A DNA stretch of 28,569 bases. Source: a virus. Numbering within the stretch: the first letter of the stretch is position 1; each line of letters begins with the position of its first letter. Positions 14,258 through 22,814 of this stretch are shown here, in pieces. The notes below the pieces were generated by a model that was given only the letters and a program-made list of their open reading frames with translations, was not told the origin of the DNA and ran no database searches. Position numbers and translations under genes: made by a program. The stretch is taken from the IMG/VR virus record IMGVR_UViG_3300030107_004985, positions 1 to 28,569 of that record, one strand, 5' to 3'.

Positions 14258-14283
14258 GGCTTTGCGTCCAGCGTTTAGAAAAC
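14258..14283 (+). repeat. 26-bp inverted element, right copy
   Basis: It begins GGCTTTGCGTCCAGCG and is the perfect reverse complement of 12830-12855, 1,402 bp away. As with the left copy, it ends exactly 27 bp before a -35 box, although its orientation relative to the promoter is opposite. Confidence 0.85.
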
Positions 14284-14310
14284 TATTTTCACAATTCGTA
14301 TCAAATAGGG

Positions 14311-14340
14311 TTTACACACAATATATCGACGGGCTATAAA
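14311..14340 (+). promoter_or_regulatory. Sigma70-type promoter P2
   Basis: -35 TTTACA (14311-14316), an 18-bp spacer, -10 TATAAA (14335-14340). TCGTATCAAA (14296-14305) lies 5 bp upstream of the -35, as TCGTATTAAA does in P1. Predicted start near 14347, so the transcript would begin at the stem-loop at 14348. Confidence 0.65.
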
Positions 14341-16778: not shown

Positions 16779-17006
16779 ATGAAGACAGGAACGATATTGC
16801 GAGTGCTCCGGCAGGCGGCAGGACTCACCCAGCAACAGCTAGCAGAACACACCACAGCGCACGGTCTAAAGCAGCCCCGGATCTCATTGATTGAGGCAGG
16901 GCAGGCGATGCCCTCAGCGGTTCAACTGGCGGTTATGCTGGACGCTGTGAAGGCATCGGACGATCAACGGTTGGGGATTTTGCGGGGGTTAAGCCGTGGC
17001 CGGTAG
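16779..17006 (+). CDS. XRE/Cro-CI family HTH regulator
   Basis: A 75-residue protein with a perfect TAGGAGGACGAC ribosome site. Residues about 4-58 form a standard XRE domain: LRVLRQAAGLTQQQLAEHT, then LKQPRISLIEAGQAMPSA and LAVMLDAV. It is a single small domain without the CI-type protease region, so it resembles Cro or a host-type antitoxin HTH. It probably represses a promoter in this region. Its end overlaps the RusA start by 11 nt. No repressor partner on the opposite strand, so a classical lysogeny switch is not visible. Confidence 0.8.
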   Translation: MKTGTILRVLRQAAGLTQQQLAEHTTAHGLKQPRISLIEAGQAMPSAVQLAVMLDAVKASDDQRLGILRGLSRGR

Positions 17007-17463
17007 CTGGGTGGAAATCATACGCGACACGATACCAGGGCAACCGGTCCCAAAAGGCCGGCCCCGGTTCTACATGCGCGGCAAGTCGCCACGGGTGCAC
17101 ACGGACGCAAAGACGAGGGCCTTTGAGTCGTTAGTCGCTCAGGTGTTAGCCACCAGCCCCCAAACCAGGGGGCAACCCCGGCCCATGTGCCCCGATCGGT
17201 CACCGGTTCGCGTTGACATTGTGGCCATCTTTCAAAGGCCGGTCGCAATGCATGCGCGCAAATACCCTGATTCGCTATTGCCGCATGCCTGCAGACCCGA
17301 CCTGGATAACGTTATCAAATCTTGTGTTGATGGCATCCAAGCCACCAACGGGTTGATATGGAAAGACGATGGCCAAGTTCAATGCATCCGGGCCGAGTCG
17401 TGGTACGCCGAAAAGGGCGGTATTCCACGAACCGAGATCGCGATCTATCGGTGGAACGGTTAA
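16996..17463 (+). CDS. rusA: RusA family Holliday junction resolvase
   Basis: A 155-residue protein with a GTG start inside the XRE gene. It carries the RusA signatures: PVPKGRPRF (17-25), a first acidic residue in VRVDIVAIF (Asp74), the main motif RPDLDNVIKSCVDGI (100-114; Asp102, Asp104, Lys108, Asp112) and WKDDGQV (122-128). RusA dimers cut Holliday junctions formed during phage recombination and replication before packaging. The length is close to the family norm. All catalytic acids are present, so it should be active. It sits with the annealing-like protein and replication genes. Confidence 0.92.
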   Translation: MAGSWVEIIRDTIPGQPVPKGRPRFYMRGKSPRVHTDAKTRAFESLVAQVLATSPQTRGQPRPMCPDRSPVRVDIVAIFQRPVAMHARKYPDSLLPHACRPDLDNVIKSCVDGIQATNGLIWKDDGQVQCIRAESWYAEKGGIPRTEIAIYRWNG

Positions 17464-17579: not shown

Positions 17580-18332
17580 ATGAAGCAATGGCACCCCGTC
17601 CCGCGGGCAATGATTGACGACGAATTACTAAGGCGGTGGGACCGCGATAACCCCGCGCCGGATCTAGTGGTCCACATGGTTTTAGTGTCTCGCATACTCA
17701 GCGGGAACCCATGGGGCCGGGCCAAATTAGCCGCCTGGTCAGGGCTCACAAAACACTCCGCGACGAAGGCAATCAAGGCCGCGCAACAGTGGGTCAATGA
17801 GTGGAATTCGGGCACTTTTCAGCCAGTAGACGATCGAGCACACGGGCAGCAGTCACCAACGATTACCGACAGTTACGGCGACGAATCGGGCAACATTCGG
17901 GCAGAAACCGGGCACAAATCGGGCACAAATCGGCATCACGCGCGCGGAATTACAGATACAAACACAAAACAAAACAATACAGATCCATCAATTAAACCCG
18001 TCGGAAACGAACAAGTCCGCCAGCTATGGGCAGACCTCAACTCACGGCGAGCCATTGACAAGGGCGGCAAGGCGCGCACGCTGAAGCTTACGCCGCAGAT
18101 AGCGCGAGCACTGCGCGAGGCGTTGACGTATTCGCAGCCGGTGGATGTGCTTAGGGCCTATGAGTGGTTTCTAACGGCAGCCGACGCCCGATGGTGGCAA
18201 GATAACGGGTGCGACTTGGTGACGTTCTGCAGACAGAAACACATTGGGGAGTTCATCAATAAATCGCAGGAATGGACCCCGGAGATCGAAGCAAAACAAC
18301 AGGCTGAAGCGGCCAACGTGATACCATTTTAA
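17580..18332 (+). CDS. Replication initiator (lambda O-like)
   Basis: A 250-residue protein after the structured leader, with GGAAACAGG as ribosome site. The N-terminal half has a helix-turn-helix (NPWGRAKLAAWSGLTKHSAT, about 43-62) as in phage replication proteins. A low-complexity linker (about 95-145) contains the DNA iteron array. The C-terminal domain (LRAYEWFLTAADARWWQDNG, FCRQKHIGEFINKSQEW) is typical of phage initiators that recruit the helicase loader, encoded just downstream. It ends AANVIPF. By analogy with lambda O it should bind the iterons and open the AT-rich stretch. Initiator role is well supported by architecture and context. Confidence 0.72.
   Translation: MKQWHPVPRAMIDDELLRRWDRDNPAPDLVVHMVLVSRILSGNPWGRAKLAAWSGLTKHSATKAIKAAQQWVNEWNSGTFQPVDDRAHGQQSPTITDSYGDESGNIRAETGHKSGTNRHHARGITDTNTKQNNTDPSIKPVGNEQVRQLWADLNSRRAIDKGGKARTLKLTPQIARALREALTYSQPVDVLRAYEWFLTAADARWWQDNGCDLVTFCRQKHIGEFINKSQEWTPEIEAKQQAEAANVIPF
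17884..17938 (+). repeat. Five tandem 11-bp iterons (putative origin)
   Basis: Units start at 17884, 17895, 17906, 17917 and 17928: AATCGGGCAAC, ATTCGGGCAGA, AACCGGGCACA, AATCGGGCACA, AATCGGCATCA. The period is exactly 11 bp, not a multiple of three, so the encoded peptide is not repetitive and selection must act on the DNA. Lies inside the initiator gene, as in lambda. Confidence 0.75.
17948..17996 (+). other. AT-rich stretch next to iterons (putative unwinding element)
   Basis: 49 bp with only 12 G/C (about 76% AT) in a GC-rich genome, starting 10 bp after the last iteron. In lambda an AT-rich segment also lies beside the iterons inside gene O and is where the duplex opens. Confidence 0.6.
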
Positions 18333-18352
18333 GGAGGACGAACGACATGGCA
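18324..18352 (+). repeat. Gene-boundary repeat, copy 2
   Basis: The same PF-stop/ribosome-site/start sequence as 15124-15151, with one extra A after CCATTTTA. It joins the initiator gene to the loader gene. Shared boundary sequences of this kind can serve as joints for module exchange by homologous recombination. Confidence 0.75.
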
Positions 18353-18865
18353 ACGACAGAAAAGGTGCGGGCAATGCTGCGCACGTATGGCAAAAACTAC
18401 GGCAAGCCTGAACGGTGGGCTGACGATGCTTTCGGGCTTTGGTTTAACGCGCTGAAGTCATACAGTGACGAGGACGTTAGCCGCATAGGGCGCGACCTTA
18501 TGGCTAAACGCCACAGAATGCCTACTGTAGCGACGTTTCTGGAGGTACTGAAGGCTGACCCCCTGACGACGCGCCCGGAGGCGGCACAGGGCTGTGGGGC
18601 GTGTTCTGGCACTGGATGGCGTGAGGTGTCTTGGCATCGATGGAACGATCAACGGCTGCAGGTCACCAGCTACGCGGCTGGGTGCGACTGTCCAAAGGGG
18701 CGACGGTTGACCGGTGGCGCAGCGCTTCCATGGTCGGAGGTTGTCGAGCGATACAAGGCCGACCCCAGCACCGAAGCGGTCTACCACACCACAGCAGCAC
18801 ACCCGGCGCTAACGACTGAAGAACGATATCACCCTGACATTGTGGCGCGGCTCCGCAATCGGTAG
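18347..18865 (+). CDS. Helicase loader-like protein with Cys-rich insert
   Basis: A 172-residue protein right after the initiator, with an AAGGAGG site. Residues about 10-70 (YGKPERWADDAFGLWFNALK, SDEDVSRIGRDLMAKRHRMP, VATFLEVLK) have the helical W-x-x-x-L-x-x-Y/F-x-D-x-x-V-x-x-A-type pattern of phage helicase loaders of the G39P kind. Residues 83-119 add Cys83-x-x-Cys86 and Cys113-x-Cys115, a DnaJ-like CxxCxGxG fragment (CGACSGTGW) that may bind zinc. The pair would load the host replicative helicase, since no phage helicase, primase or polymerase is encoded. Loader role is inferred from context and pattern. Confidence 0.6.
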   Translation: MATTEKVRAMLRTYGKNYGKPERWADDAFGLWFNALKSYSDEDVSRIGRDLMAKRHRMPTVATFLEVLKADPLTTRPEAAQGCGACSGTGWREVSWHRWNDQRLQVTSYAAGCDCPKGRRLTGGAALPWSEVVERYKADPSTEAVYHTTAAHPALTTEERYHPDIVARLRNR

Positions 18866-19742: not shown

Positions 19743-20176
19743 TGTCGGAGAAAAGAAAACCAGAAACACCTACCTCGATGCGATTGCCGCAGGAATGGAT
19801 CGATCGTGCCGATGAGGTAGCAGAGAAGCTGGAGAACGGGGGAGAGTTGGCAGCATTTGGAACGGTGACACGGGCGACCGTGCTTCGGCTGGCGTTAGAG
19901 CGTGGGCTCTCGGGCTTGGAAAGTGACGTCTACTACAACGCGCCGGGCTGGGTGTTCTATCAGGGCCCGACGTTGACCAGTTCTATCGAGTGGCAATTAG
20001 AGCGAGAGCGAATCAACAAACACAACGACGCTATTCGGTCAGGCGGTATATGCGACGGGTCGTGCGGTGGTCGTTGCGGCGATGTTGCGGCGATAGTTAA
20101 AACCGAAGCGGACATAGATTCAAAGTGGTCAGTCTTACAACTTGATAGAAATCAGCTTTCAAAGTCTACCGAATGA
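19739..20176 (+). CDS. Ribbon-helix-helix-like protein with Cys-rich segment
   Basis: A 145-residue protein with AGGAGG 6 nt before an ATGATG start; the first ATG gives a 4-nt overlap with TerS. The first 60 residues (PTSMRLPQEWIDRADEVAEK, then TRATVLRLALERGLSGLE) fit a ribbon-helix-helix DNA-binding domain: one strand, helix, turn, helix. A short Cys-rich piece (ICDGSCGGRCGDV, near 104-116) may bind a metal. The end is polar. It is placed between TerS and the methyltransferase with 4-nt overlaps on both sides. It may regulate this block. Function inferred from the fold only. Confidence 0.6.
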   Translation: MMSEKRKPETPTSMRLPQEWIDRADEVAEKLENGGELAAFGTVTRATVLRLALERGLSGLESDVYYNAPGWVFYQGPTLTSSIEWQLERERINKHNDAIRSGGICDGSCGGRCGDVAAIVKTEADIDSKWSVLQLDRNQLSKSTE

Positions 20177-21378
20177 AGGCAACACTATACCGGGGCGATT
20201 GTCTGGACGTGCTCGCAGCGATGGAGCCCGAGAGCGTGGACGCTATCGTGTGTGATCCACCGTATGGATTGGGCTTCATGGGTCGCAAGTGGGATGCCTT
20301 GCCGCCGGGCGTGGACTGGGCGCGGCTATGTCTGCGGGTATTGAAACCGGGCGGTCACCTTGTGGCGTTCGGTGGGACGCGGACGGTTCACCGACTGGCG
20401 ACGGCTATCGAGGATGCGCAATTCGAGATCCGCGATATGATCTCTTGGCTGTACTGGTCGGGGTTCCCGAAGTCGCTCGACGTGTCGAAAGCTATCGACC
20501 GGGCAGCGGGCGCGCAGCGGCAGGTGGTGGGCCATCAAAAAATGACAGGGACAGCAAGAAAAAGAATCGACGGCGGATCGCACGGGGCAGCAAGAACAAA
20601 TGCTGCGGATGATGTAGAACGTATTGCAACAACGATCGAGATCACAGCGCCCGCCACCGAAGCAGCCAAGAAGTGGAACGGCTACGGCACGGCGTTGAAA
20701 CCCGCACAGGAGCCCGCTGTGCTCGCGCGTAAGCCGTTAGCGGGTACAGTGGCGGGAAACGTAATGGAGCACGGTACAGGGGCGCTCAACATCGACGGGT
20801 GCCGGTTTGCGTATGGTGACGAGGCGTGGCCGGGGCCATGTGATGGCTCGAACCCCGGGACGGTATACGCTGGCGACTTTGGTAAAAACGGAATTCTCAA
20901 CCAAGGAACGCGGAAAGTTGACTGCGGCGGCCACGACTTAGGCCGCTGGCCCGCCAACATCTACGCTCACGCGAAAGCATCCCGATCAGAACGCGAGGCA
21001 GGGTGCGAACGGTTGCCGGGTCGAACGGGTGCAGAAGCCACAGACCGCACAGCGGGATCGGCGGGGCTGGACAATCCGAGGGCGGGCGCGGGGCGCACGG
21101 CGGACAGGGTGAAGAACCACCACCCGACGGTAAAGCCGATCGGGGTGATGCGGTGGCTGTGCAAGCTCACCGGGGGCCAACGGGGATCGGTGATTCTGGA
21201 CCCGTTCATGGGCTCAGGTACCACGGGATGTGCGGCGGTGTTGGAGGGCTTTGACTTTATCGGGATCGAGCGTGAACCGGAGTATATGCAGATATGCGAA
21301 GCGCGGATCCGGCACCATATGGGGGCGCTGTTTGCTCATGGCGTGCAAGTCATCGAGACAGACAAGGCCGCAAAATGA
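20173..21378 (+). CDS. DNA methyltransferase, beta-class (N6-adenine or N4-cytosine)
   Basis: A 401-residue protein. Catalytic motif IV DPPYGLGFMGRKWD starts at residue 28, and the S-adenosylmethionine motif DPFMGSGTTG lies at 343-352, so the order is IV, target domain, I: the beta class. DPPY favours N6-adenine. The middle has the family blocks DMISWLYWSGFPKSLDVSKA and GTALKPAQEPAVLARKPLAG. No restriction enzyme is nearby, so it is an orphan, probably protecting phage DNA or changing its reading by host proteins. It is wedged between the terminase genes with ATGA overlaps on both sides. The target site cannot be read from the sequence. Confidence 0.88.
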   Translation: MKATLYRGDCLDVLAAMEPESVDAIVCDPPYGLGFMGRKWDALPPGVDWARLCLRVLKPGGHLVAFGGTRTVHRLATAIEDAQFEIRDMISWLYWSGFPKSLDVSKAIDRAAGAQRQVVGHQKMTGTARKRIDGGSHGAARTNAADDVERIATTIEITAPATEAAKKWNGYGTALKPAQEPAVLARKPLAGTVAGNVMEHGTGALNIDGCRFAYGDEAWPGPCDGSNPGTVYAGDFGKNGILNQGTRKVDCGGHDLGRWPANIYAHAKASRSEREAGCERLPGRTGAEATDRTAGSAGLDNPRAGAGRTADRVKNHHPTVKPIGVMRWLCKLTGGQRGSVILDPFMGSGTTGCAAVLEGFDFIGIEREPEYMQICEARIRHHMGALFAHGVQVIETDKAAK

Positions 21379-22760
21379 ACAGCGCGGCCCAGGTGCTGGC
21401 AGCGGCCCCAGCGTTAGAAGCATTGGCACAGCTACGAGCAGAACACCCGTTAGCGTTCGCCACGTTGTGGCACAATGAACCACCACGAACCAGCCAGCGC
21501 GCACCATTGCAGCGGGCCGGCGTTGATTCGGTTCTGGCTGCTGGCGGTAATGGTAGCGGCAAGACGGAACTGGGCGGCCAAGTGGCGTGCGCCGTGGCCA
21601 TGGGGCGCAGTCACCCATCGGTGGCAACGTGGATTAAGCGCAACCAGGTTGAACCGTCGCTAATACCGCCGAAGCCTGGGATCGTGTTGGCGTCCTCGCT
21701 CAATTCTACGATGTCGATCAACATTCAACGGGCAGCGGTGGAGCGATACGCCCCAGCGGGTACCGAGTGGCGAAACCGTGACGGGCCGGGGTTCAGTGAG
21801 GCTCGATTTCCCGGCGGGGGTCGGGTGCGGTTCCTTACCAACGATGCGGGAGCAAGGGCCATGCAGGGGTATGCTGGGCACTGTTTGTGGCTGGATGAAG
21901 AACACGACGAATCGATCTATCGAGAAGGGATGCAACGGCTGACCCGTCGTGTGTGGGAAGGCCGATCAGGTTGGTGTCTGCTGACCATGACACCGCTTAA
22001 GGGCTTTACGTGGGTTCACCGCGCGTTCATCGCAGACCCAGAACCAGGATCGGCGGTGTTCTTCTTGCACGGTGGCGACAATCCGCACATCGACCAGGCC
22101 AAGCGCGCGCGGCTGTTGCGCGGTGTCAATGAAGGCGAGCGGGCAGCGCGGGACCGCGGCGAGTTTACGCAGTTAGAAGGGCGCGTTTTCACCGAGTGGT
22201 CACGACCGGCGCACGTTGTGCAATCTCACGCGGTGCCCGATGATTGGCCGCTATACGCGGGCTGGGACTTCGGAACCAGGGCACCTACGGCGATTGTTCT
22301 GTGCGCGCTGGACCCGTCGGACGATACGCTACACGTTATATCGGAAGTGTACCAGGCACAGCGCACGACCAAAGAAAACGCGGCCGCCTATCGGCGCATG
22401 TTGGCAGGGCGCGAGGTTGAGTGGTTGGTTTGCGACCCCGAAGACAAGGCCGCGCGGATGGCATTAGGCCGGGAGTATGGCGTGCCCAACATACCAGCAA
22501 AGAAGGGCCCCGGCTCAGTGCGGAAGGGCATCAACGATCTATCTGAACGGCTAGCCATTAACCCAATCAGCGGACGGCCGGCGCTCGTGGTGCATGACTG
22601 TTGCACCAATCTAATAAGGGAGATCGAAAGCTATGTATGGGCCCCAACCCGAAGCGGTGAAGTAAAAGACGCACCTGCCCCACGTCAGCAGGACCACGCG
22701 ATCGACGCCTTGCGCTATCTGGTTTCGCGCCTGGCTGGATCGTCGTTTGGCGTAGGGTAA
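21375..22760 (+). CDS. terL: Terminase large subunit
   Basis: A 461-residue protein. The ATG at 21375 overlaps the methyltransferase stop (ATGA); an earlier in-frame start would lie inside that gene. Walker A AAGGNGSGKTE at 55-65, Walker B CLWLDEE at 169-175 with Asp173 and Glu174, and a coupling motif near LLTMTPLKG (201-209). The nuclease half has GWDFGT at 295-300 (Asp297), VCDPED further on and QDHAIDALRY near the C-terminus. All ATPase and nuclease residues expected are visible. It packages DNA into the prohead through the portal encoded next. Length is normal for the family. Confidence 0.95.
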   Translation: MNSAAQVLAAAPALEALAQLRAEHPLAFATLWHNEPPRTSQRAPLQRAGVDSVLAAGGNGSGKTELGGQVACAVAMGRSHPSVATWIKRNQVEPSLIPPKPGIVLASSLNSTMSINIQRAAVERYAPAGTEWRNRDGPGFSEARFPGGGRVRFLTNDAGARAMQGYAGHCLWLDEEHDESIYREGMQRLTRRVWEGRSGWCLLTMTPLKGFTWVHRAFIADPEPGSAVFFLHGGDNPHIDQAKRARLLRGVNEGERAARDRGEFTQLEGRVFTEWSRPAHVVQSHAVPDDWPLYAGWDFGTRAPTAIVLCALDPSDDTLHVISEVYQAQRTTKENAAAYRRMLAGREVEWLVCDPEDKAARMALGREYGVPNIPAKKGPGSVRKGINDLSERLAINPISGRPALVVHDCCTNLIREIESYVWAPTRSGEVKDAPAPRQQDHAIDALRYLVSRLAGSSFGVG

Positions 22761-22771
22761 AAACAGAAATT

Positions 22772-22799
22772 CTAAAAATTCCCAATTGCCTAAAAATTC
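22772..22799 (+). repeat. AT-rich direct repeat upstream of the portal gene
   Basis: CTAAAAATTC occurs at 22772-22781 and at 22790-22799, 18 bp apart. The second copy overlaps the -35 box and spacer of the promoter at 22786, so the repeats could be an operator or an UP element. Confidence 0.5.
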
Positions 22800-22814
22800 T
22801 AAACCGCCTACACT
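22786..22814 (+). promoter_or_regulatory. Sigma70-type promoter P3 (head genes)
   Basis: -35 TTGCCT (22786-22791), the same hexamer as P1, a 17-bp spacer and -10 TACACT (22809-22814). The expected start, 6-8 bp downstream, is about 22821, exactly the portal GTG. It could drive the head and tail genes. Confidence 0.6.

Follow-up and report, generated by a model that had tools for sequence, protein, structure and literature searches.

Phased 11-bp iterons within an initiator gene form a probable replication origin in a phage contig

Does a row of 11-bp repeats in the middle of a phage gene, followed by AT-rich DNA, serve as an origin of replication, or does it control transcription, belong to the encoded protein or bind some other factor? 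This question is raised by an IMG/VR virus contig of 28.6 kb, the whole of which (28,569 nucleotides) was analysed and is called the window here. Its genes run from a tail terminator at the left end to a head–tail adaptor at the right end, an order that suggests a permuted and perhaps complete genome. Origins made of repeats within the initiator gene are known from Tuc2009, TP901-1, SPP1 and lambda, and those of SPP1 and lambda include AT-rich DNA (PMC8965321, PMC6316719, PMC3349717, PMC7466680). From sequence and predicted structure, we conclude that positions 17809–17996 are very probably a replication origin inside an initiator gene, at which iterons would be bound, the AT-rich tract melted and host DnaB loaded.

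An iteron array and an AT-rich tract inside one gene

The gene at 17580–18332 carries CGGGCA cores at 17887, 17898, 17909 and 17920 in strict 11-bp steps. The original prediction had counted five tandem units of strict 11-bp period; the period stands, but four cores are exact and the fifth, at 17931, is degenerate (CGGCAT) while still in step. The lag-11 self-match score of the array is 22, compared with a top score of 14.5 when the whole window was dinucleotide-shuffled 200 times (0/200 reached 22), 15 in 1000 codon shuffles of the initiator gene and never more than 11 in seven other long genes checked, and the array is the strongest tandem array of the window. The 49-bp stretch behind it, predicted to be about 76% AT, is 75.5% AT (17948–17996) in a genome of 42% AT and ranks 1 among the 28,521 49-mers of the window; it is probably a DNA unwinding element. 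The element had been bounded at 17884–17996, which proved too short: further cores at 17809, 17820 and 17843 extend it by about 75 bp upstream, to 17809. The features of the locus, all on the plus strand, are as follows.

16996–17463, plus strand: RusA-type Holliday junction resolvase gene (Pfam RusA, 8e-23), adjoining the replication module
17580–18332, plus strand: initiator gene (O-like by layout), 250 aa, with a helical N-terminal domain, a disordered linker and a helical C-terminal domain, as predicted
17809–17848, plus strand: iteron block 1, degenerate in this phage (CGGGCA at 17809, CAGCCA at 17820, CGGGCA at 17843)
17849–17886, plus strand: inter-block spacer, 44 bp from core start to core start
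17884–17938, plus strand: iteron block 2, five 11-bp units (cores at 17887, 17898, 17909 and 17920, degenerate at 17931)
17939–17947, plus strand: short GC cluster (CGCGCGCGG), a GCGCG/CGCGC run, separating block 2 from the AT-rich tract
17948–17996, plus strand: AT-rich, G-poor tract, first in AT content among all 49-mers of the window, probable DNA unwinding element
18347–18865, plus strand: putative helicase loader gene, 172 aa, with a homolog behind the initiator in most relatives

Just past block 2, or at the equivalent place, a GCGCG/CGCGC run was found in 10/10 loci checked. The genome has many such runs, 0.47 per 60 bp, and for this reason the GC cluster is no more than suggestive and was downgraded as a strong element. 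The two-core pattern TCGGGCANNNNTCGGGCA was rejected as a search motif, being too common. GC skew, proposed earlier as a check, is flat, with no turn at the array, which counts against an origin at this site. Two other AT-rich stretches were seen: 22755–22810 (73% AT), located between the terminase gene and the portal gene and containing two imperfect repeats of 18 bp, is probably a promoter or terminator region, and another 49-mer of 73% AT lies at 14275–14323 in the early region, amid small unannotated ORFs.

On plasmids, iteron binding often also represses the rep gene, and what the DNA data strictly show is a conserved protein-binding array. The repeats might thus be an operator through which the initiator or another phage regulator controls transcription of the replication operon, with replication starting elsewhere. 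We consider this improbable: the array lies in mid-gene and not at the promoter, the tract behind it is richer in AT than any other in the window, phage L has an annotated origin with this layout, and an 11-bp array is found in the origin-containing gene of Tuc2009.

Core spacing is conserved as DNA

Two CGGGCA cores fall within 80 bp in block 1 (17809 and 17843; P about 0.001), and the three core positions of this block are also present in the relatives L435 and L436; regular 11-bp blocks occupy the equivalent place in L443, L445 and L446/L447. In the window, exactly 44 bp separate the start of the final core of block 1 (17843) from that of the opening core of block 2 (17887). The gap is likewise 44 bp in L442, L443, L446/L447, L465 and L469, and 43 bp in L445; L465 and L469 were examined after the rule had been seen, and both conformed to it. 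No core lies inside the gap in any of the seven lineages (0/7), and 6/7 have a core at exactly −44, for which a binomial estimate corrected for 108 distances is about 1e-9, an optimistic value because the lineages are treated as independent. These seven two-block lineages span 26–50% N-domain identity. The codon phase in which block 2 starts (0, 1 or 2) differs among lineages and, since all three phases are used, a peptide constraint cannot explain the 44-bp rule. As a general rule of 11-bp arrays the gap was dropped: it was missing from most other initiators in a first scan. A TTAC/TTAG-like motif was also noticed at 17873–17878, 14 bp ahead of the first core of block 2; it stands at 14 bp in 7/7 lineages (ATAG in one, TTG in two), and in some of them it resembles half an IHF site.

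The repeats had been predicted to be kept as DNA, and the relatives agree with this. In two close relatives (90–93% identity), 0 of 29 core columns and 9 of 21 spacer columns were variable (Fisher P = 1.2e-4); several of the spacer changes alter residues, and the cores show no change at any of the three codon positions. The proposed comparison of 11-bp spacing in more distant relatives supports the prediction. Seven of the nine lineages that retain the initiator keep the spacing, with all three frames in use and linker peptides that differ, but the unit sequence common to them is only a loose C-R-G-N-C-A core, and a clear array was sought in five related loci (L437–L441) and found in none. Cores read CGGACA in L443, L444 and L445, CAGCCA in L442, C[AG]GACA in L446 and L447, CRGCCA in L465, and CAGACA in L469, where they are spaced 12/10/11. 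L437–L440 keep the initiator (50–56% identity) with merely a degenerate CCG motif at 10/10/11 bp, and no array was found in the related locus L441; both observations weigh against the origin reading. A homolog scan with a GWIKLHR-type protein returned that protein as the sole match. Because the spacing holds in seven lineages, in three frames and with different peptides, a constraint on the DNA, and an origin in the initiator gene, is the best reading.

Might the repeats instead be a feature of the protein, a low-complexity linker grown by slippage, with the DNA itself having no role? The stretch does encode a predicted disordered linker, and exact tandem repeats found elsewhere in public genomes often have no connection with initiators. 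This reading is nevertheless very unlikely, since a period of 11 yields unlike peptides, the cores are fixed whichever codon position they occupy while spacers and residues vary, a like layout is found in three different reading frames of homologous genes, and exact core spacing persists although N-domain identity falls to 26–50%.

The initiator and its neighbours

The original prediction had placed the repeats in a linker between two domains, and an AlphaFold2 model built with 14 relatives agrees: helices are predicted at residues 9–77 and a helical bundle at 144–245, and pLDDT is below 50 at 82–135, a predicted disordered linker between the two helical domains. The array would encode this linker because it starts at about residue 102. 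By sequence, the protein did not fall in the phage replication protein O family: it had no Pfam match at E 0.1, and its PHROG matches were weak and none of them O-like. A search of INPHARED gave no match, and a PDB sequence search gave no reliable one. Structural matches in BFVD, all modest, were to phage HTH-domain, DnaD and replication-initiator proteins; VIA returned helix-turn-helix and cyclin-like folds with Z below 5 throughout; and Foldseek against PDB gave no match with E below 0.1 for the models of the initiator and of the next gene. The lack of a Pfam match, and of detectable homology to P22 gp18-type O, counts against an origin of this kind.

The next gene, predicted to be helicase-loader-like, has weak fold and profile matches that point the same way. 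The first-ranked VIA match of its model is lambda P in the DnaB–P complex (9oa1_Y; Z 7.0, rmsd 2.9, 71 residues), and its family profile weakly matches SPP1 G39P (1no1; E 0.34); both are helicase loaders. A Z below 8 can reflect a common arrangement, as the tool itself warns, so the loader identity is a lead, and its weakness is a further point against the origin reading. No named Pfam or PHROG function was found for this gene. Elsewhere in the window, a DNA methyltransferase gene (20173–21378; Pfam N6_N4_Mtase, PHROG 67) overlaps the start of the large terminase ORF.

ParB/TubR-type systems also have phased iterons beside the gene for a DNA-binding protein, but the neighbours here are RusA and a loader-like gene and no ParA/TubZ-like gene was found among the genes scanned in the window, which leaves a partition (centromere-like) or other host-factor binding site a very small probability.

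Similar arrays in other phages

Four CRGRCA cores at 11-bp spacing were found at no fewer than 119 loci in IMG/VR. Among the 119 matches listed, 50 lie at residues 70–190 of ORFs of 180–420 aa, and at these 50 loci the downstream DNA is more AT-rich than the upstream DNA (P = 0.0014), which is not so in other arrays or controls. At most 31 of 69 encoded proteins among the matches listed match a single DnaD-like or replication-initiation PHROG, in a sample that is non-random and in which the linker peptide may inflate some PHROG matches. In twelve named phages (lambda, TP901-1 and Tuc2009 excluded), 11 bp was the top period of the initiator gene in five, and it was the second period in the initiator genes of Javan616 and proPhi6. 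A control scan of the full collection at 10-bp spacing gave 75 rows, mainly exact duplications; varied arrays in ORFs of initiator-like size numbered four at 10 bp and at least 34 at 11 bp (34 among the 119 matches listed). The 10-bp variants may also be real, because 4/18 control ORFs match a replication initiation PHROG. Fourfold CGGGCA arrays in bacterial genomes were set aside as evidence: most of those among the matches listed lie outside initiators and are tandem copies, identical or nearly so.

When DNA alone was scanned for the two-block pattern, L495 (514–1200) was also found; there, a different initiator-like protein (GKWVPISKFF N-terminus) is encoded by a gene with CGGACA blocks, 11-bp spacing and a 44-bp gap, adjoined by a DnaB-like helicase gene. 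The two-block 44-bp pattern was further noted in virus contigs L473, L474, L476, L477, L483, L491, L494, L500, L501 and L508. In L474 and L476 the repeats are antisense within an initiator gene whose product is 45–46% identical to P22-type O proteins, and L474 has TGTCCG cores in the coding sense. Separately, 11-bp tandem arrays of A-rich units were observed in the initiator genes of Staphylococcus phage SP6 (L458:1501–2388), Listeria phage vB_LmoS_293 (L459:1492–2409) and Pseudomonas phage KLEP17-4 (L457:1495–2295), which are annotated merely as encoding regulatory, DnaD or hypothetical proteins.

How the origin might work

The case for an origin consists of the DNA layout, conservation at the DNA level, the predicted domain layout and a match in geometry to an annotated origin. 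By analogy with lambda and SPP1, this is where the initiator would bind, the DNA melt, the helicase be loaded and replication start. Initiator copies would use their helical N-terminal domain to bind the CGGGCA-type iterons. With 11-bp steps and a gap of 44 bp, equal to four turns of 11 bp, all heads would sit on one face of the helix and, occupying two phased blocks, may form an O-some-like complex that melts the AT-rich tract directly downstream. Host DnaB helicase could then be loaded at the melted tract by the C-terminal domain together with the product of the next gene.

Comparison with known systems

The DNA-only scan for two blocks also reached O genes of the phage L type. The record of Salmonella phage L, whose O gene is of the P22 gp18 type, has a putative rep_origin annotated inside that gene. 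In phage L, as in HK75, ST160 and HK542, the O gene carries TGTCC iterons at 11, 11, 44, 11 and 11 bp, followed by an AT-rich tract. The window has in common with them two in-gene blocks, 11-bp steps, 44 bp between blocks and AT-rich DNA downstream. Block 1 departs from the P22-type two-block layout in the window, where it is degenerate, while it is regular in the window's relatives. The coding strand carries the core as TGTCC in the phage L type (GGACA on the opposite strand) and as CGGGCA in the window; the next gene encodes a DnaB-like helicase in the former (annotated P in HK542) and a loader-like protein in the latter. The initiators have no detectable homology to each other (hhalign probability 0.3%).

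What is surprising is that the 11/44 spacing recurs in initiators without a detectable sequence relationship. Two further relatives obeyed the strict rule, which is seen again in P22-type origins and in L495. One tentative explanation, which we favour somewhat less than its negation, is that unrelated phage initiators converged on, or exchanged, a single origin grammar. That grammar, itself conjectural, might comprise one-turn 11-bp iterons with a GGRCA-like core, two blocks set apart by whole turns of the helix (44 bp) and an unwinding tract, with iterons in either orientation. If it is true, the fixed geometry of a multi-headed nucleoprotein complex, and not the protein family, defines the origin. 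With the spacing rule, origins of uncultured phages would be findable by sequence alone, and helical phasing between iteron blocks becomes directly testable. Here it places a candidate origin and initiator in a phage group without a Pfam, reliable PHROG or INPHARED relative.

SPP1 oriL, in gene 38, resembles the window in having direct repeats and an AT-rich unwinding element within the initiator gene, and the G39P loader gene lies next to gene 38 (PMC6316719), as a putative loader gene does here; SPP1 has a second origin, oriR. The replisome organizer genes Tuc2009 orf16 (Rep2009) and TP901-1 ORF13 have an origin inside the initiator gene, as the window may (PMC8965321). In orf16, annotated 'contains origin of replication', four CAACCA units stand at exactly 11 bp, whereas TP901-1 has a 15-bp period; the two phages differ from the window in core and initiator, and no 44-bp gap was seen in them.

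Lambda ori was the model of the original prediction, and the general arrangement agrees with it: tandem iterons in the initiator gene, AT-rich DNA downstream of them and a neighbouring gene for a helicase loader (putative in the window). An origin within the initiator gene stands as the best reading of the sequence, but the nearest layout is found elsewhere. Lambda has four 18-bp iterons about 20–24 bp apart in one block (top lag 20); the window, unlike lambda, has 6-bp cores every 11 bp in two blocks. This shorter, phased unit had been taken as a departure; it is not new, because the 11-bp units and 44-bp gap are already present in phages L, HK75, ST160 and HK542. The element is best read as one of the in-gene iteron origins of tailed phages, the already known kind of lambda, P22, SPP1 and Tuc2009, and its closest precedent is the O genes of phages L, HK75, ST160 and HK542, not lambda.
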